This document shows positions 19,425 through 35,084 of a stretch of DNA of 64,000 nt, piece by piece. Both the position numbers and the translations under genes were made by a program. The notes beneath the pieces were generated by a model. It searched no databases. It was given only the letters and a program-made list of their open reading frames with translations, and was not told the DNA's origin. Location: the NCBI GenBank assembly GCA_000525675.1, contig CP002190.1, positions 1,736,001-1,800,000 of the forward strand, in the 5' to 3' direction. This DNA comes from Bdellovibrio bacteriovorus W (lineage in GTDB: Bacteria > Bdellovibrionota > Bdellovibrionia > Bdellovibrionales > Bdellovibrionaceae). Position 1 is the first letter of the stretch; every line of letters starts with the position of its first letter.

Positions 19425-20303
19425 ATGAAATCAGTTCTAGGAAAGATTTTATCTTTAGCCATTGCCACGACAACACTTGTCCCTCTGCAAGGATTTGCTC
19501 AGCAGCCATATCCAAGCTCGTGGGAATACGAAACAAGTCTTAGCTATTCCAATCAAGAAATGGACTGGATCAAGTTCGGTCTTATGAGCTCGGTGATTGT
19601 CTTTACTTCTGAGCGTGAAATGCTCCAGTTTGTTCAAAAAAACGATGGCCAAGTGACTGATAGAGCCGCCAACGCGGGTGAGTATTTTGGCTCTCGTAAA
19701 ATGGTTCCAGTGATGGGGGCTGCTTACGTCTTAGGGATGGTTATGAATGAAGCTGGTATGTCGCGCATGGCAGTTCTGAGCTTTAAAGCAGGCATCATCA
19801 ATACTCTCATTAATGACTCTTTAAAACAAACCTTCCGCCGAGCTCTACCAAGAGAAACAGACGATCCTTTCAGAGAAACTCGCTCTGATGGAGCTCCCTC
19901 GATGGGAATGCCGTCAGGGCATACTTCGTTTGCCTTTTCAGTCGCCACTGTCATCGCGGAGGTCGCAAGGGAAGAATATGACTCGACGGCGATCCCCGTT
20001 CTTGCCTATGGTGCTGCGGCTCTCACGGCATGGTCTCGCGTATACCAGAACCAACACTGGGCCTCTGACGTTCTTATTGGTGCTATCGTTGGTCACTTTT
20101 CCGCAAAACTTGCGATGTCCTCAGAACGAGAAGAATCTGGCAATTTGCGTGTAAGAATTTATCCCTACTATGGACCAAATCGCTCTGTCGGTGTGATGAT
20201 GTCTATCTCCGAGAAAACTCCGAAAGGAGTTGTCTGCAGACCTGAGGAGCAAGGTAGTTCGCATTGTATTGAAAAAGTTTTTGATAAGTACTTTAAGAAA
20301 TAG
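19425..20303 (+). CDS. Exported PAP2-family (phosphatidic acid phosphatase type) protein
   Basis: 292 residues with signal peptide (VPLQGFAQQ, ~26). The three PAP2 motifs are present: KQTFRRALPR (motif 1 with a Lys...Arg-Pro-like pattern), MPSGHTSFAF (motif 2, catalytic His) and SRVYQNQHWASDVLIG (motif 3, nucleophile His plus Asp). Likely a membrane-associated periplasmic lipid phosphatase, for example acting on undecaprenyl or phosphatidyl phosphates. The last ~26 residues (from KGVVCRPEEQ) form a tail that is found again as an isolated fragment at 34919-34990. Weak ribosome site. Confidence 0.88.
   Translation: MKSVLGKILSLAIATTTLVPLQGFAQQPYPSSWEYETSLSYSNQEMDWIKFGLMSSVIVFTSEREMLQFVQKNDGQVTDRAANAGEYFGSRKMVPVMGAAYVLGMVMNEAGMSRMAVLSFKAGIINTLINDSLKQTFRRALPRETDDPFRETRSDGAPSMGMPSGHTSFAFSVATVIAEVAREEYDSTAIPVLAYGAAALTAWSRVYQNQHWASDVLIGAIVGHFSAKLAMSSEREESGNLRVRIYPYYGPNRSVGVMMSISEKTPKGVVCRPEEQGSSHCIEKVFDKYFKK
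20223..20294 (+). repeat. 72-base segment duplicated at 34919-34990
   Basis: Codons 267-290 of the PAP2 gene. The other copy, inverted at 34.9 kb, differs at 8 of 72 bases; 7 of these are synonymous in the PAP2 frame and one changes Cys to Arg. Confidence 0.85.
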
Positions 20304-22101: not shown

Positions 22102-22188
22102 TGGTGCCCGGGACTGGACTTGAACCAGCACGCCCTTTCGAGCGCTACCACCTCAAGGTAGTGCGTCTGCCAATTTCGCCACCCGGGC
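22102..22188 (-). tRNA. tRNA-Leu(GAG)
   Basis: 87 bases including an encoded CCA. Acceptor stem GCCCGGG/CCCGGGC, discriminator A, anticodon stem CTACC/GGTAG with loop TTGAGGT, anticodon GAG at 22154-22152 (minus strand), a long variable arm as expected for leucine and TTCAAGT in the T loop. Its 3' end is the probable att site for the deleted integrase. Confidence 0.97.
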
Positions 22189-22553: not shown

Positions 22554-24758
22554 TCAGAACCGATAGGTGAAGTCAGCAAACCAGGTTCTTCCAGGAGATC
22601 GCGATGACGTATAGTATTCTAAATTCATCAGATTATTAACAGCCAGCGAGATTGTCGCTTGAGATGTTAAAGCATGTCGCACTTTAGCATCCACTACCGT
22701 ATGCGCATCATAGGACCCTTGGACTCCATCGACACGATCGGTATTCAAGTCATTGCTAAAGCGCTTACTCATATATTTTACGCCTAAATATGCGCCCCAG
22801 TCTTTCAGTTTAAAATCTAAACCAGAATTAAGCATATGCTCTGGAACCCATGGAAACTTCTTTCCCACAGATAAAGGCACCGCACTGTTCTCCACAATTT
22901 CGGTCGAAGTATATGTATAGTTAAAGTTGGCACTCACCCAAGGAGACAAGGTGTATTCAGTCTCAAATTCAATTCCTTTGCTTTGCCCCTTACCTGCATT
23001 CAGCTTTTCTCGAACAGTTCCGCTTGTGGTGCTATAAATCATATCTACGATATAGTTCTCAAAATAAGTTAACTTTAAAACCGAATCTTTGCTCAGCCCC
23101 TGGGTTACGCCGACTTCCCAAGAAAAAGAACTTTCAGGCTTCAGATTTGGGTTCCCCTTATAAGTCGTTCCACTGGATGTTGTCCAAGTTCTGTAAAGAT
23201 CATAAATAGAGGGCGCCCTGAATGCCTGTCCTCCAGATAATCTTAAAGCTGTCTTTGAAGCTGGAGTGTAAACTATAGAAACTTTAGGACTGAGCATGTT
23301 CTTACTTCTTGCCCCATGACTGCCTTCGACAGAGTTAAACCCTTGCGTCGTCTCCCACCAATCACTTCTAAGTCCGGTAAAGAGAACTACATTCTTAGAT
23401 ATCAAAAACTCATCCTGAGCAAATAAGGCATAGCTACGGTCCGCACCTCTAGATTCGTATCCTAAAGCTTCGCGGCTTTCTTCATTTCGCCAGTTTGACA
23501 ATGAATACTCACTTGTATCAGAGATGCTTTCGCGTACAGCGGCACCGAAGGTTAGCAAATGATTGTTCACCTCAGAAGTAGTCAACTGCAGATCCAAGCT
23601 TTTTACTGAATTAGGGGTGGTGGACAGCTTACCTTTCTCTGGAGGTAAATCATTTGGCGTCCTACCATCTGGCGTGACACTCCAATTTTTCGCTTGATCG
23701 AAGTACGATGCACCCAGCTTCAAGCTCATCTTGTTCATTTTTACTTCATATTCAGAACTATAAATGAGTTGTTCAAAATAAACCGAATTTCCTAAGTAAG
23801 AAAACGGTTGTGCACCTGTTGAAGAATATATCCACTTTGGCGCACCACTAGAGTCCGCAAGAAAAGTTCGCGGATTGTCATAGTCATAACCACCCGTTGA
23901 GCGCAGAACGCTAAATCTCAACTTACTTTGTGCCGTTAGTAAATATTCTGTCTTCAAGTGCAAACTATCTTGTTTAGCTCTATTTCTTCCTTTATCGCCA
24001 ATAATATAAACTTGACCACCAGTCACCGATCGCGATGTCTTATATCCACTCAATCCAGCCAAAGGAGCTAATTGACTTGTTATCATCGCATCGCTGCGAT
24101 AACCATCTGTTGCCTGATAGTCTCCGCTGAAATAAACCTTAAGTTTATCATTTAAAAAAACATCTCCATAGGAGGCTCGCAGACGTCGAAAGTTATCTGG
24201 CGCCACCGAATCGACACTACCTCCCCCACCGACACTTAATGAAACCTCTCTTGTTTCAGGCATTTTAGTGATGAGATGAATCACTCCACCCATGGCACTG
24301 CCTCCATAGAGACTTGACGATGGACCTTTGACGACTTCAATTCTTTCTAAACTCTCAGTTGAAATAGCATTCAAGAAAACTGTATTTGCATAAGGACTAT
24401 TTAAAACAACTCCGTCCATCATCACCATAGTCCGCCCCTGCCCCGGCATACCTCGCAACATGATAGACGAATTATAGTCCATAATTCCTTTACCACGATT
24501 GACTATAACCCCAGCTGAAGTATCTAAAGCATCATCAACGGAAAGAACATTTCTCTTTTCCATATCCTTGTTTGTTATAACCTCAACACTGCCCGGCGAC
24601 TGCTCCACAGGCATCGAACTCTTTGTTGGGGTGACAATAATTTTATCTAAAGAAAGATAAGACTCTGGAACAATCTTTAGGCTAGACTGAGCGAACAATA
24701 GGCTTGAATAAAAGTACACTGATGCGAAACATACAGAAATTCTAAAAAAGATTCTCAT
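22554..24758 (-). CDS. TonB-dependent outer-membrane receptor (BtuB/CirA-like)
   Basis: 734 residues, typical length. Signal peptide ends LLFAQS (~24). A TonB box-like LDKIIVTPTKS follows, then the plug domain (VEVITNKDMEKRNVLSVDDA, RGMPGQGRTMVMMDGV, RIEVVKGPSSSLYGGSAMGG) and a 22-strand barrel ending in ...RTWFADFTYRF with terminal Phe. Receptors of this group import cobalamin, siderophores or similar at TonB expense. It is the last gene of the minus-strand surface operon starting at 31423 that also encodes a transcobalamin-like protein, so cobalamin or a related corrinoid is the leading substrate guess. No cobalamin riboswitch is obvious upstream. Confidence 0.92.
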   Translation of the reverse strand: MRIFFRISVCFASVYFYSSLLFAQSSLKIVPESYLSLDKIIVTPTKSSMPVEQSPGSVEVITNKDMEKRNVLSVDDALDTSAGVIVNRGKGIMDYNSSIMLRGMPGQGRTMVMMDGVVLNSPYANTVFLNAISTESLERIEVVKGPSSSLYGGSAMGGVIHLITKMPETREVSLSVGGGGSVDSVAPDNFRRLRASYGDVFLNDKLKVYFSGDYQATDGYRSDAMITSQLAPLAGLSGYKTSRSVTGGQVYIIGDKGRNRAKQDSLHLKTEYLLTAQSKLRFSVLRSTGGYDYDNPRTFLADSSGAPKWIYSSTGAQPFSYLGNSVYFEQLIYSSEYEVKMNKMSLKLGASYFDQAKNWSVTPDGRTPNDLPPEKGKLSTTPNSVKSLDLQLTTSEVNNHLLTFGAAVRESISDTSEYSLSNWRNEESREALGYESRGADRSYALFAQDEFLISKNVVLFTGLRSDWWETTQGFNSVEGSHGARSKNMLSPKVSIVYTPASKTALRLSGGQAFRAPSIYDLYRTWTTSSGTTYKGNPNLKPESSFSWEVGVTQGLSKDSVLKLTYFENYIVDMIYSTTSGTVREKLNAGKGQSKGIEFETEYTLSPWVSANFNYTYTSTEIVENSAVPLSVGKKFPWVPEHMLNSGLDFKLKDWGAYLGVKYMSKRFSNDLNTDRVDGVQGSYDAHTVVDAKVRHALTSQATISLAVNNLMNLEYYTSSRSPGRTWFADFTYRF

Positions 24759-24874
24759 ACCGAAAAGCCCTCTACAATAGGTATTGACCTCTGTCTGAAG
24801 GTTTACTGAGCCGATTGAATTTTGTCTATTACTATCTAATTAGCGAGACTATAAGACTGAAGCTGAGTCATTCT

Positions 24875-25285
24875 CTATTGTTGACTCACCTTTTTATAAA
24901 AATATTCGAGTTGAGTGGACTTGAAAAAAGTTGCATCAATTTTGAATATATTCCGCATCGATGAATATTCCAAAAACACCAATGATTCATCGCTCCCCTT
25001 GGCCTCAATTATAATTTCAAAGTCTACGCCATCCACCTCTTCAGCAGATATACGAGTTTCAAAAACAGCGGTACATAGAATCTGTTGATCATACTTGGAA
25101 ACTATTTTCGTTTTAGTCTGATAGAATTTTAAATCTTGCAGGTCCCGCGGGCACCAATTCCACGTCTCACCAGTTTTTCGATTTATATATTTCAAATACG
25201 GAATCACAGGAGTTTGTAAAATAACAAAAACAAGAGTAACACCTAGAGCGCATAAGGTGAAGGAGATCAAGGTCCTACGGGACAT
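24875..25285 (-). CDS. Small membrane-anchored protein with MSRRTL start
   Basis: 136 residues from ATG 25285, chosen because AAGAAAGGG lies before it and the helix begins here. N-terminal MSRRTL followed by a hydrophobic anchor (FTLCALGVTLVFVILQ), then a ~110-residue extracytoplasmic domain with two Cys (NWCPRD; ILCTAV) and no family I recognise. Its start overlaps the end of the preceding lipoprotein gene by 11 bases, indicating translational coupling. The Ig-repeat protein heading the operon begins with the same MSRRTL plus helix. Confidence 0.65.
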   Translation of the reverse strand: MSRRTLISFTLCALGVTLVFVILQTPVIPYLKYINRKTGETWNWCPRDLQDLKFYQTKTKIVSKYDQQILCTAVFETRISAEEVDGVDFEIIIEAKGSDESLVFLEYSSMRNIFKIDATFFKSTQLEYFYKKVSQQ

Positions 25286-25562
25286 AGTACCCTTTCTTAG
25301 TTCTAAGCCCCAGAAGAATAGATGTATGTGTTGCATAGACGGTGGCGTTGTTCTCGGTTTTCAACACGGAATCGCAAACTAAGCCGCCAGCCGAACCTTC
25401 TACTTGAAGCAAGCTCTCTTCAGTATACATTCTTGAGAATGGTGTTGTTGCTAAGGAAAAAGTATTTAAGGAGTTCTGATCTTTGGGCTCATAAATTTGA
25501 ACATCTAACATGCATCCAGACAAAACAATGAGGGCACTGAAATATAGAAATAGCTTTTTCAT
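25275..25562 (-). CDS. Small lipoprotein
   Basis: 95 residues. Lipobox VLSGC at ~13-17 after MKKLFLYFSALI. Acidic at +2 is absent (M), so outer-membrane sorting is likely by E. coli rules. The mature part has one further Cys (LVCDSV). Family unknown. It lies 12 bases after the fibre gene and overlaps the next gene, so it belongs to the surface operon and may be an assembly or secretion partner. Confidence 0.65.
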   Translation of the reverse strand: MKKLFLYFSALIVLSGCMLDVQIYEPKDQNSLNTFSLATTPFSRMYTEESLLQVEGSAGGLVCDSVLKTENNATVYATHTSILLGLRTKKGYYVP

Positions 25563-25574
25563 AGCGCCCTTTCT

Positions 25575-27470
25575 CTATTGAAAACCCGTTATCCAGCTTC
25601 CATAAACCGTTCCACCAGCTCGTAGAAAAGTAATTATCGTCGCTGTGTCCGATTGAGAAATAGGTCCCGATGGTCTAAAAAGAAAATCCTCGAAAGCCAA
25701 AGTATCGGGTACCGCTTGAGAAAACAGACAGGTGCCCGAGTTCGCCCCTTTTACGATCAACGTATAGGACCCACCTTCAAACATATTTTCAAAAGTAAAA
25801 TTACCACAGCTTGCTGCTGTATATTGCACGTTTCCATTGTTCCAGTTTATATGAGTCGCATTTCCCGCATTGTGAACCTTGGATAGTATCTGTCCACTCA
25901 CTTCAACTTGCGCAGTCGTACTAGAAGAATCCGACGCGATGACTCTTCCCGAGGTTTTAATATCGCCCGTTGTTTCTAAAGAAGTACTCCCCCCAATTAC
26001 ACCGGATGTAATTGCATTCCCTGAAACTTTGCCCGGAGTAGCGATTGTAGAAAGCTTGCTATCTACGATAGCGGCGGTATTGCTAATGTCACTATTCACA
26101 ATTGTTCCATCCAAGATATGACCTGATGAGACTGAATTCAATGCCAGCGTCGGATTCGGGTAGGTGCCAGCCAAACTTCCTCCGGCACTTCCAGTTGGCT
26201 CTGCCCCGTCGACATCTAAACGAATTCCTCCGGCTGAATCCGTTACTGTAACATTCGTACCTCCAATAATATTCGCCAACTGATAACCCGATCCATTTCC
26301 TACAAGGATTTGTCCATTCGTAGGAATCTGACTGACTCCAGTTCCACCTTGAGAAACCCCCAAGACACCTGCAGTGATTTGATTGGTATTTATAGCAATT
26401 GATCGACAAGCATAAACGTCGTTTACTGAATCAAAGTATGTAACCTGATGAATATTACATGATGGAAGTGATACAGGAACCCAGCTACTAGAACTGCCTT
26501 TCCAAGTTAACACTGCCCCCTGCGTTGGTGCAGCATTACTGACAGAATATCCCTGCAACTTTGCGACTTGCGGATTTACTATTGTTCCAGACAAATCGCC
26601 GCTTAGAGAGGTATCACTTTGGAATGCGTTGACAATACGAGTGTCGTTTCCTGCGGCGACAGTATTCTCAGTGGTGCCCACGTTGAGAGTCAACGATACT
26701 GCTCCACTGAGCATGCTAGATCCCATATAAGAGTTTGTGCTTGTAACACTCGTAACCATGGCTTCAGCATTACCCGGAGTAAAAGCTTCCCAGCCGGTTC
26801 CACTCCACCTAATAGACTCGCCCGAGCCCAGCGTTGGAGGAATACTCCCTCCTCCCAAAGTTCCTGACTTCGCATAAACGCTAGAATTCCCATTTATTAA
26901 ATCTAAGAACTCCGCATACTGAGCATTGTTCAAAGGGCTGGTTGCAACATTAGAAGTGACTCTTAAAATATTATCAGCTGAGTATCCACCAACCCGTACC
27001 GATTCAACAGCATAAGGCATAAATGATAAGGTTTGTGCTTTTAACGTTTGAACTCCGGCACCGGCATTAAACGAAATGACGAGCTTGCGCGTATCAAATT
27101 TCTGAGGCATGAAGCTATTCCCATTTTCACAATTGGGAAAAGGCCCAAGAGCACTGCTAGTTGATTTATTAGACAGTACATCAAATAATGAATGCCCACC
27201 ATCCACTGCTGCTGAAGCCCTTACTCCGTCTCCAATATTCAGAGAGAATATCCCATCAGACCCCTCCATATTTAACGTATGGGTCTCTTGATAGATGATA
27301 CAATTATTAGAATCAGGACTGCGAACCTGCACTGTGAATTGAACATTTTGATGAACTAGCGGCTGACCGTCGGCCTGCACAACGCGACCTTGATAAGTCA
27401 TAACTGCGGCTTGTGCGCCCATCAAATATACAAACGTTCCAAAAGTAATCAGAATCTTTAAGAAAGACAT
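25575..27470 (-). CDS. Secreted fibre-like surface protein (predator-type trimeric fibre)
   Basis: 631 residues. Signal peptide ends MGAQAA (~22). Residues ~25-135 (MTYQGRVVQADGQPL, then VQFTVQVRSP, GIFSLNIGDG) form the N-terminal domain common on Bdellovibrio fibre/tail-fibre-like proteins. The middle is repetitive and Gly/Ser/Thr/Asn-rich with fibre signatures (SGDLSGTIVNPQV, GVSQGGTGVSQIP, GGSLAGTYPNPTLAL). The last ~110 residues (from SKVHNAGNATHINW) look like a compact tip domain. This resembles the mosaic adhesive trimer fibres reported for B. bacteriovorus host recognition, so prey binding is a reasonable inference. Trimerisation cannot be proven here. Confidence 0.7.
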   Translation of the reverse strand: MSFLKILITFGTFVYLMGAQAAVMTYQGRVVQADGQPLVHQNVQFTVQVRSPDSNNCIIYQETHTLNMEGSDGIFSLNIGDGVRASAAVDGGHSLFDVLSNKSTSSALGPFPNCENGNSFMPQKFDTRKLVISFNAGAGVQTLKAQTLSFMPYAVESVRVGGYSADNILRVTSNVATSPLNNAQYAEFLDLINGNSSVYAKSGTLGGGSIPPTLGSGESIRWSGTGWEAFTPGNAEAMVTSVTSTNSYMGSSMLSGAVSLTLNVGTTENTVAAGNDTRIVNAFQSDTSLSGDLSGTIVNPQVAKLQGYSVSNAAPTQGAVLTWKGSSSSWVPVSLPSCNIHQVTYFDSVNDVYACRSIAINTNQITAGVLGVSQGGTGVSQIPTNGQILVGNGSGYQLANIIGGTNVTVTDSAGGIRLDVDGAEPTGSAGGSLAGTYPNPTLALNSVSSGHILDGTIVNSDISNTAAIVDSKLSTIATPGKVSGNAITSGVIGGSTSLETTGDIKTSGRVIASDSSSTTAQVEVSGQILSKVHNAGNATHINWNNGNVQYTAASCGNFTFENMFEGGSYTLIVKGANSGTCLFSQAVPDTLAFEDFLFRPSGPISQSDTATIITFLRAGGTVYGSWITGFQ

Positions 27471-27568
27471 GTCTCTCTATCGGCCTAGAAAACCAGATCA
27501 TTGAGCTCAATTATATGAAGATGCCTCATGCTTGATACCGTTTTGAGGATTTAAGTCTCAAATTGAAG

Positions 27569-29167
27569 CTATCCTCGTCTACGCCGTCCTATAATAACAA
27601 ACAACGCCACTCCGCAAAGAATTGCCGCTAGAGCTATTGCTAAACTTTTTTGACTCCAAATAAATACCTCTGAACGAATAAATCCTGCCTTCTCCGCCAC
27701 CACTACAAAACTCTCTGTGAGACTTATTGGAACGCGAATCTCGCCTTTATGATCGGTAAATCCAATTGATTTTCCATTAATGAAAACTTCTGCATCAGCA
27801 ACTGACTTGCCCTCTATTCGATCTTTCACAAGTAAATTTCTAAACGAAGTTTTAAGCACCTGCAGCGCCGGCTGATCAAACTCTCCGGAGTAATACAAAA
27901 CTTCATCACCATCTTTTAGCGATAGATCTGAAACACATATTTCCGCATTTTTATTATTAATTTTGTAGTTCCAATTGCGCCCCATTGCCCCGTTTATATC
28001 GGTCAAAATAGTTCCATAGAGGTTGCGAATACTATAGCTAATGCCAGCCTTCTTTAGGGCCGCCATCACCGCAAGCAATGCTGTGGGTCTATCTTCGTAA
28101 ATGGGTTTTTCATCAAACGGATTGATATAGCTCTGAGGGACGACTTTTAACTCTTCAACCAGTGTAAATCCGTCCGGCCCCTCAATTCGCACTTTCACAA
28201 AAGGAGTTGACGTCGAGGCAACCAAGTCCTTCTTTCCCTCCCGCTTTTTCATCATAACGGGAACATTCGCGACCTCTGCATAACTTCGTCCCGCCAAAAA
28301 GGAAAGTCCATACACTGCAGAAGAGCAAGGATTATGCGCAACTCCCGCAGTTAGCAAAAACCCCCCATTATCACGTCTATAACCATTAATCTTTTGTAAG
28401 TGCCCAGACTTCTCGAAGTAGGGAAACTTCTTCGAGGATATATTTTCTAAATGAAGACGAGAAAGATATAGCAGATTCATCTGTGGGAGGTTTGTCTTCT
28501 TAGATGCTGCAAATGGATTTTCAATTTCCGTTTGAGAAAGAAACTCATAGGCTTTCCCTAACGCATGCTGCGGCCAATCTTGGGGCGGAATACTCATCAC
28601 CACCATTGCCGTTGAGTCTATATCAGAATTTAAGATCGGATTCGCGCCATAAGCCCAGCCTCCGTCTTTTTTCTGCTGTCGCAAAAGATAATCAATCAGC
28701 GCCTTTTTATCGATTCTGTCATCAAATTTTGCAGATAATAAAAGCCAATTGGCTTCAAAGTTTTTTCCATTTTCTTGAAAATCTTTTGATCTTATATACT
28801 TATTAATTTCTTCAACTTTTAAACCGTTCTTTTCTGTTGCGCCTATAATATAAGTACTAAAAACATAGAAGCCAAAATACTTCTTCACACTTTCAGGATC
28901 GTTATCCCTAACCCACTTTAGATAATCCACTGGTGATTTTCCATTCACGGTCCAATAGGCTGGATCTTCGCCATTCAGTCTCACTGCTAACAAAGCCTTG
29001 GCTGTGACAGATAGATTTGGTCGCTCGTAACTATTCCCCCACCCCCCTTCGATAGTTTGACACATTTTGAGATAGTCTTTAGTCATCTCTATATCTGTCG
29101 CGGCCGAAGATACATTCAATTTTAAAATTAAAATACCAACGATAAATAATCTCTTAGTTATCTTCAT
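27569..29167 (-). CDS. Transcobalamin/intrinsic-factor-like membrane-anchored protein
   Basis: 532 residues. Signal peptide ends VSSAA (~23). Residues ~25-310 carry three prenyltransferase/squalene-cyclase-type repeats (EGGWGNSYERPNLSVTAKAL, KKDGGWAYGANP and RRDNGGFLLTAGVAHNPCSS), predicting an alpha/alpha toroid. Residues ~318-430 look like DUF4430, the transcobalamin C-terminal-like domain (NWNYKINNKNAE, LKDGDEVLYYSGEF). A PEGA-like beta unit (SVADAEVFINGKSIGF) follows, then a C-terminal helix and RRRRG. Toroid plus this C-terminal domain is the layout of animal intrinsic factor and transcobalamin and of some bacterial cobalamin binders. With a TonB receptor in the same operon, corrinoid capture is the best hypothesis; other ligands remain possible. 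Confidence 0.65.
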   Translation of the reverse strand: MKITKRLFIVGILILKLNVSSAATDIEMTKDYLKMCQTIEGGWGNSYERPNLSVTAKALLAVRLNGEDPAYWTVNGKSPVDYLKWVRDNDPESVKKYFGFYVFSTYIIGATEKNGLKVEEINKYIRSKDFQENGKNFEANWLLLSAKFDDRIDKKALIDYLLRQQKKDGGWAYGANPILNSDIDSTAMVVMSIPPQDWPQHALGKAYEFLSQTEIENPFAASKKTNLPQMNLLYLSRLHLENISSKKFPYFEKSGHLQKINGYRRDNGGFLLTAGVAHNPCSSAVYGLSFLAGRSYAEVANVPVMMKKREGKKDLVASTSTPFVKVRIEGPDGFTLVEELKVVPQSYINPFDEKPIYEDRPTALLAVMAALKKAGISYSIRNLYGTILTDINGAMGRNWNYKINNKNAEICVSDLSLKDGDEVLYYSGEFDQPALQVLKTSFRNLLVKDRIEGKSVADAEVFINGKSIGFTDHKGEIRVPISLTESFVVVAEKAGFIRSEVFIWSQKSLAIALAAILCGVALFVIIGRRRRG

Positions 29168-29176
29168 TCGACCTCG

Positions 29177-31423
29177 CTAACTACACGTACAATTGCAAGT
29201 TGTTACACTACCCGTTTTCCCATGTACTGTGGAGCAAGATGTTAATGTACCAGCTCCGCTCGAACATATACTTGCGAAAGGACACGACACCCCTGTACTA
29301 ACATAGCCATTGATACGAGAATTTCCAGGGCACATTGCCGTTGAGTTATTACTGGCGTTACACCTTTTCCAAGTGTAAGTACCAGGTGTACTTTGATTCC
29401 CAGCAACGTCTAGTGAAATTACAGAAAATGTATTACTCCCCACCACTGCTGAAACAGCAACGCCTGAGGTACATCCAGCGAATGCACCTGCATTCACTTT
29501 ACATTGAAAACCTGCCAAACCAGATAATGAATCCGAACCCGTAAAAGAAAAATTTGGCGAAGCCAACGAGCTATGAGCACTTGGATATGAAGTAATTGCT
29601 ACCGAAGGCGCTCCCGTATCATACAACCTCACCAAATTCGCAGCCGCTGTATTACCATTTCCTGCTGCATCTATAGCAACCCCTGCTCCCACTGAAACTG
29701 TCACATTTCCCTGTGCTGAAGGCGTTACAAGAAACGTGTAGGTTGATGAGCTCACAGCATTGAATGTGCCAGCAGTGCCATTGGCGACTTGAATATCCCC
29801 CAACGAAAAACCTGTCACTGCCTCTGAAAACTCCGCAGTCACGGTAAAGTTAGCAGCGCGAAATGCACTACCAATGGGCGTCGATAAGGATAAACTTGGC
29901 GAGATACTATCAAAAACTCGAGTCAAATTAGAAGCAATGACATTTCCGTTCCCCGCCAAATCAAAAGCGACCCCCGCAGGAACACCGACAACAACATTTC
30001 CTTGCGCTAATGGTGTGATCGTAAAAGTATAGACCTCACCACTACCTGCAAAGTTAGACAGAGTTCCATTTGAAAGTGCGACTCCTGCAGCGTTGAATCC
30101 AGATACTGGTTCCGAAAAAACAACCGTTACAACAAAGCCCCCTGAGTTAAAATGGCTTGCTATAGGGCTTGAAAGGATAACAGTTGGAGGAGTGTTATCA
30201 AAAGTCCTTTGCAACTCATTCGCCGCAGTATTCGAATTTCCTGCTGCATCTTCAGCAACTGCAGGCGGGACATTAACTTTGACAACTCCTTGTCCTGATG
30301 GAGTTACAATAAAACTATAGCTAAACCCATTTCCTGAAAAACCAGTGACTGTGCCATTTGTAATAACCAGATCTGAGGAGTCAAAACCAAATACATCTTC
30401 TGAAAACGTCGCGACGACAGTAAAGCTTGGTGAACTAAACGGATCTCCAGTCGAAGTACTCAGAGTCAAGCTCGGCGGAACAGTATCATAGATACGATTT
30501 AGACTTGAAGTGATGTTCCCATTGCCTGCTCTGTCAAATGCAACATGATCGGGCACTTTGACTTCAACACTTCCCTGCCCATGAGGAGTAATCGTAAAAG
30601 AGAAATTTGTTCCGTCACCTGAAAACCCACTTATGGAACCATTCGTTACGACAACATCGGATTCTGAAAAATCTGTTACCACCTCAGAAAACTGCGCCAA
30701 AACCAAAAAATCTGCACTATTAAATGAGTTCTTTACTGCCGAACTTAAAGAAAGGCTCGGCCGAACGCTGTCAAAAGTTCTAGATAAGACAGGCGACTGC
30801 TTATTTCCATTACCTGCCAAGTCAGTGATAACGTCCGCAGGAATTGCAACTGTCACAAGCCCTTGAGCAGCCGGAGTCACGAGAACCTTATACCTCGTAG
30901 GCCCACCACTTAAGGCTGAAGCAGTTCCATTCGTGACAACTATATCTTCTATTGAAAATCCAATGATTGCTTCTGAAAAATCAACAAGAACTTCGAAATT
31001 ACTCGCACTAAAGTAATCCGCCACTTCCGAGCTCAAAGCAACTTCTGGGGCGTCAGTATCAATCAAAATCGAAGCCGATAAAACCTTGCTAAATAAATTG
31101 AACTCATTCTTAGCGACAACGCTTAATACCAGCTCTCCACTTGCCCACGGAACAATAAAAGGGGATTCGCAGTCTATATAAGCGCCACCATTCACACTGC
31201 ACTGAATAGAAGAAATGGGCGCACCATTATCCCTTGAAACAGAAAACTCAAATATATGAGTCATAGAGTTCGTCGGACTTTGCGGCAAACTTACCCACTC
31301 TACTTTTGGAGCGGGACCAGAAATCATATATTTCCAAAATGCACCAAGGTTATAATATGCCGCTACAATTCCAGCTGGTAGGAATAACGATACGCAGACT
31401 ATAAGCAATGTCCTTCGGGACAT
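29177..31423 (-). CDS. Ig-like repeat surface protein heading the operon
   Basis: 748 residues from ATG 31423, which has AGGAGG 6 bases upstream (an in-frame start eight codons earlier lacks this). N-terminal MSRRTL and a hydrophobic anchor are followed by a short Ig-like segment and five ~95-residue repeats with the pattern FSExVxGF, VTNGT, VTPxxQG, AGNGN and a closing (R)xYD/FD. These are bacterial Ig-like domains often called Big_12-like. A sixth, different Ig-like unit and a Cys-rich tail (CPGNSR, CSSGAG, CNCTCS) end the protein. Likely an extended cell-surface or periplasmic stalk. Next gene follows after 9 bases. Confidence 0.75.
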   Translation of the reverse strand: MSRRTLLIVCVSLFLPAGIVAAYYNLGAFWKYMISGPAPKVEWVSLPQSPTNSMTHIFEFSVSRDNGAPISSIQCSVNGGAYIDCESPFIVPWASGELVLSVVAKNEFNLFSKVLSASILIDTDAPEVALSSEVADYFSASNFEVLVDFSEAIIGFSIEDIVVTNGTASALSGGPTRYKVLVTPAAQGLVTVAIPADVITDLAGNGNKQSPVLSRTFDSVRPSLSLSSAVKNSFNSADFLVLAQFSEVVTDFSESDVVVTNGSISGFSGDGTNFSFTITPHGQGSVEVKVPDHVAFDRAGNGNITSSLNRIYDTVPPSLTLSTSTGDPFSSPSFTVVATFSEDVFGFDSSDLVITNGTVTGFSGNGFSYSFIVTPSGQGVVKVNVPPAVAEDAAGNSNTAANELQRTFDNTPPTVILSSPIASHFNSGGFVVTVVFSEPVSGFNAAGVALSNGTLSNFAGSGEVYTFTITPLAQGNVVVGVPAGVAFDLAGNGNVIASNLTRVFDSISPSLSLSTPIGSAFRAANFTVTAEFSEAVTGFSLGDIQVANGTAGTFNAVSSSTYTFLVTPSAQGNVTVSVGAGVAIDAAGNGNTAAANLVRLYDTGAPSVAITSYPSAHSSLASPNFSFTGSDSLSGLAGFQCKVNAGAFAGCTSGVAVSAVVGSNTFSVISLDVAGNQSTPGTYTWKRCNASNNSTAMCPGNSRINGYVSTGVSCPFASICSSGAGTLTSCSTVHGKTGSVTTCNCTCS

Positions 31424-31687: not shown

Positions 31688-32785
31688 CTATTGATTGGCT
31701 AAAACATACTGACTTACTTCATTATAAGAGCCTTTAAAAATAACCCTCGGATTTCGCCTCATCAATGACTTCGCATAAAGTGGGTCATAGTAATACAGCA
31801 ATAGTTTTCGAATCCACACTCTATTGATATCTAGGGCTTGGTATAAATTAAATTCTTCCCGCGAATGCTCTAGATCATTCAATAATTCTTGCGATCTCAA
31901 TCCACCTAATTTTTTTGCAATTTTCTCGATAGACTTAGTAAACTCTTGAAATCTTAATTTTCCTAATTCTGGATCACCCTGCCCAATGGCGCTATTCAGT
32001 ATATAATCTATAAAAATATTTTCCACGCGACTTTCAAGTGGCTCATCCACATATAAAACCGGAGCCATACGCATCGCCAAGAACAGCTCTTCCGGCACTG
32101 CACACTGGCCAATCATGCGACTTTCATCTTCGATTAAAACTCTCTGATTTAGATGACCTTGATTCAATATCTTCAACGCCTGCACCGCGAGATCGTTTTC
32201 AAAATTAATCTGGGTCGACTGACTGCTCCCCATGGCACCAAAGGCAGAGCCTCGATGGTGAGCCGCTTTTTCTAAATCAATCACTGGATTGCTCTCAGAG
32301 AGCCTTTCTAATAAATGAGTTTTCGCACTCCCCGTCGGCCCTGATAATACCAAAAACTGAAAGCCTTGAACCTTCGTCTCTAAAGTCTCGCGCAAGAAGC
32401 TGCGCGCCTCTTTATAACCACCATCAATGATAGGCCGATGAATGCCATTTTCTTTAAGCCAGCGCTGAGAGATTTGCGATCTCAATCCCCCGCGAAAGCA
32501 ATACAACACAGTCTCAGGATTTGCTTGAACGAACTTCTTCCATCGCTCGATACGCTCGTCGCGCACCGAGCCCGAGACAAGCTCATGGCCGAGAGCAATG
32601 GCCTTTTCTTTACCGTCATTTTTATAGGTCGTCCCTACCGCTGCGCGCTCATCATCCTTCATCAATGGCAAATTCACAGCATTCGGCAATGAGCCCACCG
32701 CGAACTCCACAGGGGCTCTCACGTCGATGAGCGGCGTGTGTTTTAGAAATAAATCAGCAAGTTGCTGAGGACTAATTCGCTCCAA
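31688..32785 (-). CDS. mnmH: tRNA 2-selenouridine synthase MnmH (SelU)
   Basis: 365 residues. N-terminal rhodanese domain (PLIDVRAPVEFAVGSLPNAV; catalytic Cys in LYCFRGGLRSQ) and a C-terminal P-loop domain (LSGPTGSAKTHLL, Walker A). MnmH replaces sulfur by selenium at the wobble uridine of some tRNAs, using selenophosphate. The family's GTTYKNDGKEKAIALGHELV stretch is clear. It overlaps selD by 14 bases, so donor and user of selenophosphate are coupled. Confidence 0.95.
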   Translation of the reverse strand: MERISPQQLADLFLKHTPLIDVRAPVEFAVGSLPNAVNLPLMKDDERAAVGTTYKNDGKEKAIALGHELVSGSVRDERIERWKKFVQANPETVLYCFRGGLRSQISQRWLKENGIHRPIIDGGYKEARSFLRETLETKVQGFQFLVLSGPTGSAKTHLLERLSESNPVIDLEKAAHHRGSAFGAMGSSQSTQINFENDLAVQALKILNQGHLNQRVLIEDESRMIGQCAVPEELFLAMRMAPVLYVDEPLESRVENIFIDYILNSAIGQGDPELGKLRFQEFTKSIEKIAKKLGGLRSQELLNDLEHSREEFNLYQALDINRVWIRKLLLYYYDPLYAKSLMRRNPRVIFKGSYNEVSQYVLANQ

Positions 32786-33839
32786 TACTCACCCAGTGAT
32801 TTTTCTGAGAAGACACTTTGCCGACCACAGACGCTTTCTTAAAGTTTTTTTGCAGAGCTTGTACAATCTCTGATGCTTTTTCTGCTTTCACCGTCAAAAG
32901 CAATCCTCCACTTGTTTGTGGATCATAAAACAATAAACGCTCTAGCTCGGAGATCTCCAAAAACTCAATAGCCTCTTCCGTGTATTGAGCATTGCTACGA
33001 TGAGCTTTTGTGAGGAAGCCTTTTTCTAAATAGTTCATCACACCGTCAAACTTCGGCACTTGCTTCCAATTAAATTCCAAATTCACTTGGCTTGCTTTTG
33101 CCATCTGCATACTGTGTCCCGCTAAGCCAAATCCAGTGATATCGGTGGCGGCATGAATATGCTCTGCCTGCTCTGGGGTTAAGAAGTCTAAAACATTATT
33201 CAAAGTCGCCATACTGGTCAGAGCTTCAGAAATTGCTGCTTCGTCAGCCTCACGTCTTTTAAGAGCCGCCGTCATCGTGCCAGTTCCTAAAGGTTTTGTG
33301 AGAATAAGAACATCCCCTACTTGCGCTTGATCATTGGACCAAATTTTTTCCGGATGAACAAAACCCGTCACAGAAAGACCGAATTTTAAAGTATCATCAT
33401 CTATAGAATGCCCACCCACAAAAGTAGCTTGAGCTTCAGCAATCACATCACTAGCCCCTTGCATGACCTCAATGATCACTTCGTTTGGCAGGGTCGCAAT
33501 TGGAAATGCCAATATACCCATGGCCGTCTTTGGTTTTCCACCCATGGCATAGACGTCACTTAAAGCGTTAGCGGCAGCAATACGACCGAAAAGTTTTGGC
33601 GTGTCGACAATGGGAGTGAAAAAATCAAGAGTTTGCACCATGGCCACTTCGTCAGTGACTTTGTAAATCGCAGCATCATCAAAAAGACCACCATCTACCA
33701 ACAAAGCATCGTGCCGAGGCGGAAATTGAACTTGCGAGAGAATCTTTCGCAGTTCTGAGGCAGCAACCTTGGCGGCACAACCACCTTTTTGAACAGTTTG
33801 GGTCAGGGCTATTGAGGAAGATGATGTTTCATTATTCAT
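32772..33839 (-). CDS. selD: Selenide, water dikinase SelD
   Basis: 355 residues. Makes selenophosphate from selenide and ATP. The active-site loop is KGGCAAKV with Cys rather than selenocysteine. FVGGHSIDDDTLKFGLSV and DITGFGLAGHSMQM are strong SelD signatures, as is DPQTSGGLLLTV. Because it is coupled to mnmH and no selA/selB or selenocysteine signal is visible here, its visible use is tRNA selenation. First gene of the two-gene unit. Confidence 0.96.
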   Translation of the reverse strand: MNNETSSSSIALTQTVQKGGCAAKVAASELRKILSQVQFPPRHDALLVDGGLFDDAAIYKVTDEVAMVQTLDFFTPIVDTPKLFGRIAAANALSDVYAMGGKPKTAMGILAFPIATLPNEVIIEVMQGASDVIAEAQATFVGGHSIDDDTLKFGLSVTGFVHPEKIWSNDQAQVGDVLILTKPLGTGTMTAALKRREADEAAISEALTSMATLNNVLDFLTPEQAEHIHAATDITGFGLAGHSMQMAKASQVNLEFNWKQVPKFDGVMNYLEKGFLTKAHRSNAQYTEEAIEFLEISELERLLFYDPQTSGGLLLTVKAEKASEIVQALQKNFKKASVVGKVSSQKNHWVSIGAN

Positions 33840-34435: not shown

Positions 34436-34567
34436 AATATTCTCTTTCTTAAAACTACGGATTTCAATTACCTTACCGCTACTTTACATTGGAACTTCCC
34501 GGTTGCGCCATGCTCCATCGCGAATTTTGGTGCTTCTAAAATGCCCACATTCACTTTCTGCTTTCTT

Positions 34568-34610
34568 AAAATTGTCAGCGGGCCTTAATTTAGGGCCCGC
34601 TGACAATTTT
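34568..34610. repeat. 17-bp perfect palindromic hairpin
   Basis: AAAATTGTCAGCGGGCC (34568-34584) and its exact complement (34594-34610) around a 9-base loop. It could be a bidirectional terminator or a REP/MITE-like unit. It cuts the 3' end of the HTH fragment at 34604-34741. Confidence 0.75.
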
Positions 34611-34741
34611 TGGAATGTTGCCTCCGTCATTTTGCGCTTTCCAGAAATCAATGCCGACAAAGTCGCATGATTGACTCCGAGATATTGAGCAAAAGACCTC
34701 AACGAATAGGACGGATTTTTCGCCATTCTTCGAATGAGTTC
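34604..34741 (-). pseudogene. TIGR02147-type HTH fragment
   Basis: 46 codons in frame (ELIRRMAKNPSYSLRSFAQYL, then LGVNHATLSALISGKRKMTEATFQKL) match the DNA-binding N-terminal segment of the TIGR02147 family. Full proteins are ~250-300 residues. The frame is stopped by TAA just upstream and runs into the palindrome downstream, so both ends are lost. Treated as a remnant. Confidence 0.65.
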
Positions 34742-34918: not shown

Positions 34919-34990
34919 GAAATACTTATCGAAAACTTTTTCAATACAATGAGAGCTGCCTTGCTCCTCGGGTCTGCGGACAACTCCTTT
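34919..34990 (-). pseudogene. Isolated duplicate of the PAP2 C-terminal tail
   Basis: 24 codons match residues 267-290 of the PAP2 protein at 19425-20303. Of 8 base differences 7 are synonymous. Sequence similarity stops abruptly on both sides. It is probably the relic of a former paralogous gene that was under protein-level selection until recently. Confidence 0.75.
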
Positions 34991-35084
34991 CAATGACTGT
35001 AGAATTCAGAATACTCTATTGAATGAGCCCGGCACAGCAAAGTCACTACTGCCAATCCCTAGTCTGAGCTAAATCTGATGCACT

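Follow-up and report, generated by a model that had tools for sequence, protein, structure and literature searches.

A possibly lineage-specific cluster of a Bdellovibrio-type predator, with a putative prey-adhesion module, corrinoid receptor and stalk–toroid unit

The window analysed here is a stretch of 64,000 nucleotides from the complete 3.0-Mb genome of Bdellovibrio bacteriovorus W (CP002190.1, positions 1,736,001 to 1,800,000). Between positions 22554 and 31423 it holds six genes, all on the minus strand and separated by 9, 98, 12, -11 and 116 bases, an arrangement that the preliminary description had given exactly. The genes, and the domains recognised within them, are as follows:

29177..31423, minus strand: Ig-repeat stalk protein, 748 aa, with an N-terminal membrane segment, five Big_12 domains, an OmpL47-type domain and a Cys-rich C-terminus
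27569..29167, minus strand: toroid + DUF4430 protein, 532 aa, with a signal peptide, an alpha/alpha toroid and a beta-grasp-like domain
27890..28069, minus strand: putative DUF4430 domain of the toroid protein, transcobalamin-like
Within 27569..29167, minus strand: further parts of the toroid protein, a carboxypeptidase-regulatory-like domain and a C-terminal TM segment with RRRRG
25575..27470, minus strand: MAT fibre, 631 aa, of the NS74 type (without the S74 peptidase), N-domain at about 26958-27431
25275..25562, minus strand: small lipoprotein, 95 aa, LPAM_1, lipidated Cys17 predicted, member of a MAT-linked lipoprotein family
24875..25285, minus strand: small membrane-anchored protein, 136 aa, overlapping the lipoprotein gene by 11 bases
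22554..24758, minus strand: TonB-dependent receptor, 734 aa, with TonB plug and barrel, of a corrinoid-associated clade

For two of these genes the list of open reading frames proposes longer products, starting at TTG 31447 for the stalk and at an upstream ATG for the small anchored protein; in both cases the start used here has the better ribosome-binding site. The first 18 bases of these two genes (at 31423 and 25285) are nearly identical and encode MSRRTL..., so one gene start may have been copied from the other. Sites resembling promoters or terminators occur in the cluster no more often than in shuffled sequences, and the six genes may or may not share a single transcript. The boundaries of the sub-units proposed below rest only on the 98- and 116-base gaps.

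Several features surround the cluster. Directly upstream, a rhodanese-domain gene (selU-like) overlaps a selD-like AIR synthase gene (31688-33839). A near-perfect 26-nt palindrome lies within a small HTH-like ORF (34563-34615). On the other side, a tRNA-Leu(gag) gene (22102-22188) is followed by broken integrase-type fragments (21893-21202), one with Arm-DNA-bind_3. A 72-nt inverted repeat, 90% complementary (20222-20293 / 34920-34991), flanks 14.6 kb including the cluster, the left arm being formed by the 3' end of a PAP2 gene.

The fibre has no Pfam match; it matches the MAT N-domain model NF053851 with 118.7 bits (cut-off 60), and a shaft of phage-fibre-like repeats leads to its C-terminal tip. 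Its closest relative, at 52-53% identity, is a MAT of genome G008, and the tip is 67% identical over 165 residues to that of a 587-aa MAT of G008, 57% to that of a G021 MAT and 51% to that of a G023 MAT. The N-domain, the shaft repeats and the shared tip therefore identify the fibre as a short NS74 MAT. MAT fibre genes are present in 24 of 24 genomes of the genus. MATs are prey-binding surface fibres of Bdellovibrio (Caulton 2024, PMC10769870), and by membership of this family the protein would be displayed on the surface as a prey-binding trimer.

Twelve bases from the fibre gene lies that of the small lipoprotein. A profile built from seven lipoproteins (A2) finds members in 24 of 24 genomes of the genus; the window lipoprotein scores 105.6 bits against it, a value to be read with its own inclusion among the seeds. 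The family is marked by a lipobox, a CS[LM][DE]-type start and a repeated GY motif, and the window protein is a divergent member, with a CMLD start and a weak repeat motif. Linkage of the family to MATs was followed up from a chance observation, as was the correlation reported below, and was counted on matches outside the profile. The seeds were left out because some of them came from looking beside MATs, and 43 regions of next-best matches were chosen by lipoprotein score alone. These regions hold 46 lipoprotein-family ORFs. For 36 of them a MAT gene lies no more than 200 bp away, in each case on the same strand and never on the opposite one; one of the 36 linked MATs was recognised by eye. 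Random placement would give near 1%, by my own estimate, which assumes that about 20 MATs, each of 4 kb, occur in 3.7 Mb. Lipoprotein and MAT reading frames overlap in 21 cases, some of them owing to the choice of the longest frame. When the lipoproteins are clustered at 60% identity, 20 of the 23 clusters include an adjacent lipoprotein-MAT pair.

The two partners also diverge together. Distances between MAT N-domains and between lipoproteins are correlated over 30 dereplicated pairs (Mantel r = 0.84, p = 0.0002, which is the floor of 5000 permutations; three of the pairs come from earlier, partly MAT-centred loci). The correlation holds within genomes (r = 0.88, 19 comparisons) and is therefore not accounted for by the species tree; it describes joint travel and divergence rather than binding, since joint inheritance of neighbours yields the same correlation. 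When MATs were selected only by their MAT score, 25 of 26 had no adjoining lipoprotein-family gene, which argues against an obligate adjacent partner. Several genomes instead have one main-class lipoprotein at a conserved locus where no MAT lies, an arrangement that would fit sharing in trans by MATs. A genome-wide contrast (21 genomes with strong scores for both MAT and lipoprotein, three with neither, Fisher p 0.0005) was set aside because its thresholds were chosen by eye and the rank correlation is not significant.

The small anchored protein has homologues in eight other genomes, two of them (G008 and G023) beside a MAT-lipoprotein pair; around the other six no MAT was found within 11-12 kb. 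Two independent searches, one with the lipoprotein in the genus and one with the small protein in the order, led to the same G008 site, directly upstream of a close MAT relative, where only a remnant of the small gene is left beside the pair. G023 has the lipoprotein gene running into the start of the MAT, with the small gene alongside in divergent orientation. All three genes are thus found together, reshuffled, in two other species.

One further pair touches a characterised fibre. A family lipoprotein of genome G004 (at 2350426) overlaps the start of a fibre gene. The last 271 residues of that fibre match PDB 8ol4, and 271 residues is the length of the Bd2439 construct G837-D1107 (PMC10769870). 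Judged from this correspondence, the fibre gene is probably that of Bd2439, the MAT fibre with a known glycan ligand. Lipoproteins and operons are not mentioned in PMC10769870, and the MAT-lipoprotein pairing is recurrent and apparently undescribed. The window lipoprotein is put forward as a candidate surface anchor of MAT fibres. I consider it an even chance that these lipoproteins are cognate outer-membrane anchors or assembly partners of MATs, with one lipoprotein class per N-domain class, some encoded next to their fibre and one shared in trans by the many main-class fibres. If so, they would be the surface element of the predator to which the MAT N-domain should bind and whose identification is awaited (PMC10769870); a family that recurs beside MATs, the Bd2439 gene included, makes this question testable.

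The TonB receptor leads in another direction. In a tree of 78 receptors, which covers no more than the sample obtained with a plug-domain query, it groups (SH-aLRT 99) with four receptors, L223-L226, of Geobacterales and Nitrospirota: Trichlorobacter, a Desulfuromonadaceae MAG and two Nitrospirota. Identity to these is 44-48% over nearly the full length. Their neighbours include CobQ and CobD (L223), CbiM and BtuF/BtuC/BtuD-like genes (L224), CbiM/CbiO-type genes (L225), and a CbiM-like gene and CbiZ (L226), with TonB, DUF2162, ExbB, DUF2149 and CobN-like genes also nearby. The relatives had been ranked by sequence before riboswitches were searched for; a cobalamin riboswitch (RF00174) lies directly upstream of the receptor in L223, L224 and L225, and upstream of another receptor of the same cluster in L226. 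Such riboswitches are not confined to the clade, being present upstream of four among 12 less related receptors. No cobalamin riboswitch was found in the cluster or the genome of the window, and an Rfam scan of the cluster at a permissive threshold gave nothing credible. For a related TonB-CobN cluster of G. lovleyi, the predicted cargo is siderophores, B12 or corrinoid precursors (PMC3403914). Elsewhere in the genome of the window, a purine riboswitch (L303 1028-1125) overlaps the start of a predicted nuclease gene.

Family scores alone would suggest other ligands. The receptor falls below the curated cut-offs for BtuB (equivalog TIGR01779, 170.3 bits against 599.7), haem receptors (TIGR01785, 206.2 bits against 316.85) and siderophore receptors. 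Its best HMM scores come from a siderophore model (208 bits) and a haem model (206 bits), its nearest PDB sequence is CirA, and Bacteroidota CobN-like clusters with TonB receptors serve haem, at least in the portion of that literature consulted. The receptor might then import haem or a ferric siderophore, the toroid protein binding something else. I regard this as unlikely: close relatives under cobalamin riboswitches likewise have this haem model as their top-scoring one, the stretch from the FRAP to the NPNL box of the receptor shows no His, and the genome has a haem-type TonB/ABC locus elsewhere. An AF2 model of the receptor (pLDDT 86) has BtuB as its best fold match (Z 37.8, 20% identity); BtuB fills the top eleven rows, at Z 34.8-37.8, the best row for another protein being at 34.8, and Foldseek ranked Cir first. 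The best inference for the ligand is a corrinoid, which I hold to be fairly probable. The genome encodes two further TonB receptors (L303 6152-7972 and L304 4430-6328), one of them BtuB-sized beside a TonB gene, the other CirA-like beside a haem-type ABC transporter.

The second pointer to corrinoids comes from the toroid protein, which the preliminary description had called intrinsic-factor-like. The toroid domain itself stands, above its cut-off (PF13249, 28.5 bits against 26.2), while DUF4430 is borderline, with 25.3 bits in one search and 20.7 in another for a cut-off of 23.8. No transcobalamin or intrinsic factor is among the PDB sequence matches up to E 10, which does not exclude the fold, and a single-sequence AlphaFold model (pLDDT 34.7) is unusable. 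The protein reads as having a signal peptide and a C-terminal membrane segment ending in RRRRG, suggesting an anchor in the inner membrane with the protein on its periplasmic face; the surface location proposed for the whole set is therefore doubtful for this member. A scan of the genome collection, with patterns that reach close relatives only, returned no relative, and 369 genomes of the phylum contain a single homologue (G020, 26-28% identity), of the same layout, in which DUF4430 was not detected. It lies on a short contig of 9.6 kb, near a lipoprotein-family gene, a PAP2 gene and a cytochrome P460 gene; no TonB receptor or MAT is on this contig, and a P460 relative also adjoins the MAT-lipoprotein pair of G008. 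Bacterial toroid + transcobalamin-like proteins have been predicted to be B12 scavengers (PMC1796856). That the window protein binds a corrinoid is a tentative proposal, somewhat less likely true than false, and the reading of stalk and toroid protein together as a corrinoid-binding part is suggestive only.

A need for corrinoids is plausible in this organism, since its genome holds two credible genes with B12-binding domains, an IcmF-like B12-dependent mutase and a radical SAM protein. A PF02310 match at 1491656 was rejected as a B12 enzyme; it is IMPDH.

I propose that the cluster is lineage-specific and consists of three adjoining units, a reading that could equally turn out right or wrong. 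The fibre, the lipoprotein and the small anchored protein would form a prey-adhesion module, in which the MAT trimer would stand out from the outer membrane while the small lipoprotein, attached to that membrane by its lipid, holds or assembles the conserved N-domain. The receptor would import a corrinoid, either cobalamin or an incomplete one, across the outer membrane. The ligand might then be received by the toroid/DUF4430 protein, a corrinoid-binding protein tethered to the inner membrane on the periplasmic side and accompanied by the stalk. The gene order, the family assignments, the repeated pairing of lipoprotein and MAT with their correlated divergence, and the corrinoid surroundings of the receptor's relatives are observations; the functions, and any cooperation between the units, are inferred.

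The preliminary description had instead seen one dedicated machine of fibre, stalk, toroid protein and receptor, binding prey and harvesting cobalamin. The tight spacing on one strand and the corrinoid pointers of two members would fit such a complex, which is nevertheless very improbable: G008 and G023 have fibre and lipoprotein without toroid or receptor, the toroid homologue of G020 has neither fibre nor receptor on its contig, and the corrinoid receptors of the clade occur without fibre or toroid, no toroid homologue being found in the neighbourhoods of L223-L226. The fibre is of a known prey-adhesin type with partner genes of its own, and Big_12-type relatives of the stalk are common in the genus without linkage. 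A single conserved operon was rejected because the components scatter, and the expected co-occurrence in other Bdellovibrionota failed, the one toroid homologue among the 369 genomes having neither receptor nor MAT on its short contig and no receptor as close as 40% being found in the order. The cobalamin guess is supported for the receptor, and a single dedicated machine is not.

A quite different possibility, which I take seriously while leaning against it, is that chance brought an acquired receptor and an orphan toroid gene together with a MAT-lipoprotein module in a variable locus, and that they do no joint work. The six-gene set was found in no second genome among those searched, the nearest receptors in Geobacterales and Nitrospirota suggest acquisition, and the tRNA-Leu with its integrase fragments and the flanking inverted repeat would suit such a locus. 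Chance alone accounts less readily for two separate corrinoid pointers in one cluster, for a toroid homologue again near a lipoprotein-family member in G020, and for the cytochrome P460 gene common to that locus and the MAT-lipoprotein locus of G008. A corrinoid receptor with a transcobalamin-like neighbour would suggest that predators scavenge B12-type cofactors, a subject that no paper among the titles and abstracts consulted addresses.

Several parts resemble known systems. Like transcobalamin, intrinsic factor and the bacterial toroid + SLBB proteins (PMC1796856), the toroid protein has an N-terminal toroid, here followed by a putative DUF4430-type domain; it differs from them in an extra beta domain and a C-terminal membrane anchor, and from the bacterial proteins also in that no CbiO/CbiQ genes are in the cluster. 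The receptor, as modelled, has its best fold match in E. coli BtuB, although its score is below the equivalog cut-off, and it shares its clade with the corrinoid/CobN-cluster receptors of Geobacteraceae and Nitrospirota (such as that of G. lovleyi pSZ77, PMC3403914), whereas no cobalamin riboswitch, CobN, BtuFCD or CbiMNQO was recognised in the cluster. Like described MATs (PMC10769870), the fibre is of the NS74 form and has a signal peptide and conserved N-domain together with a phage-fibre-like shaft and a variable tip; that description does not mention the two partners encoded beside it here, the small lipoprotein and the small anchored protein. Bacteroides BtuBG pairs likewise place a lipoprotein gene near a TonB receptor, whereas the present one, of 95 aa, is paired with genes for fibres instead of receptors.
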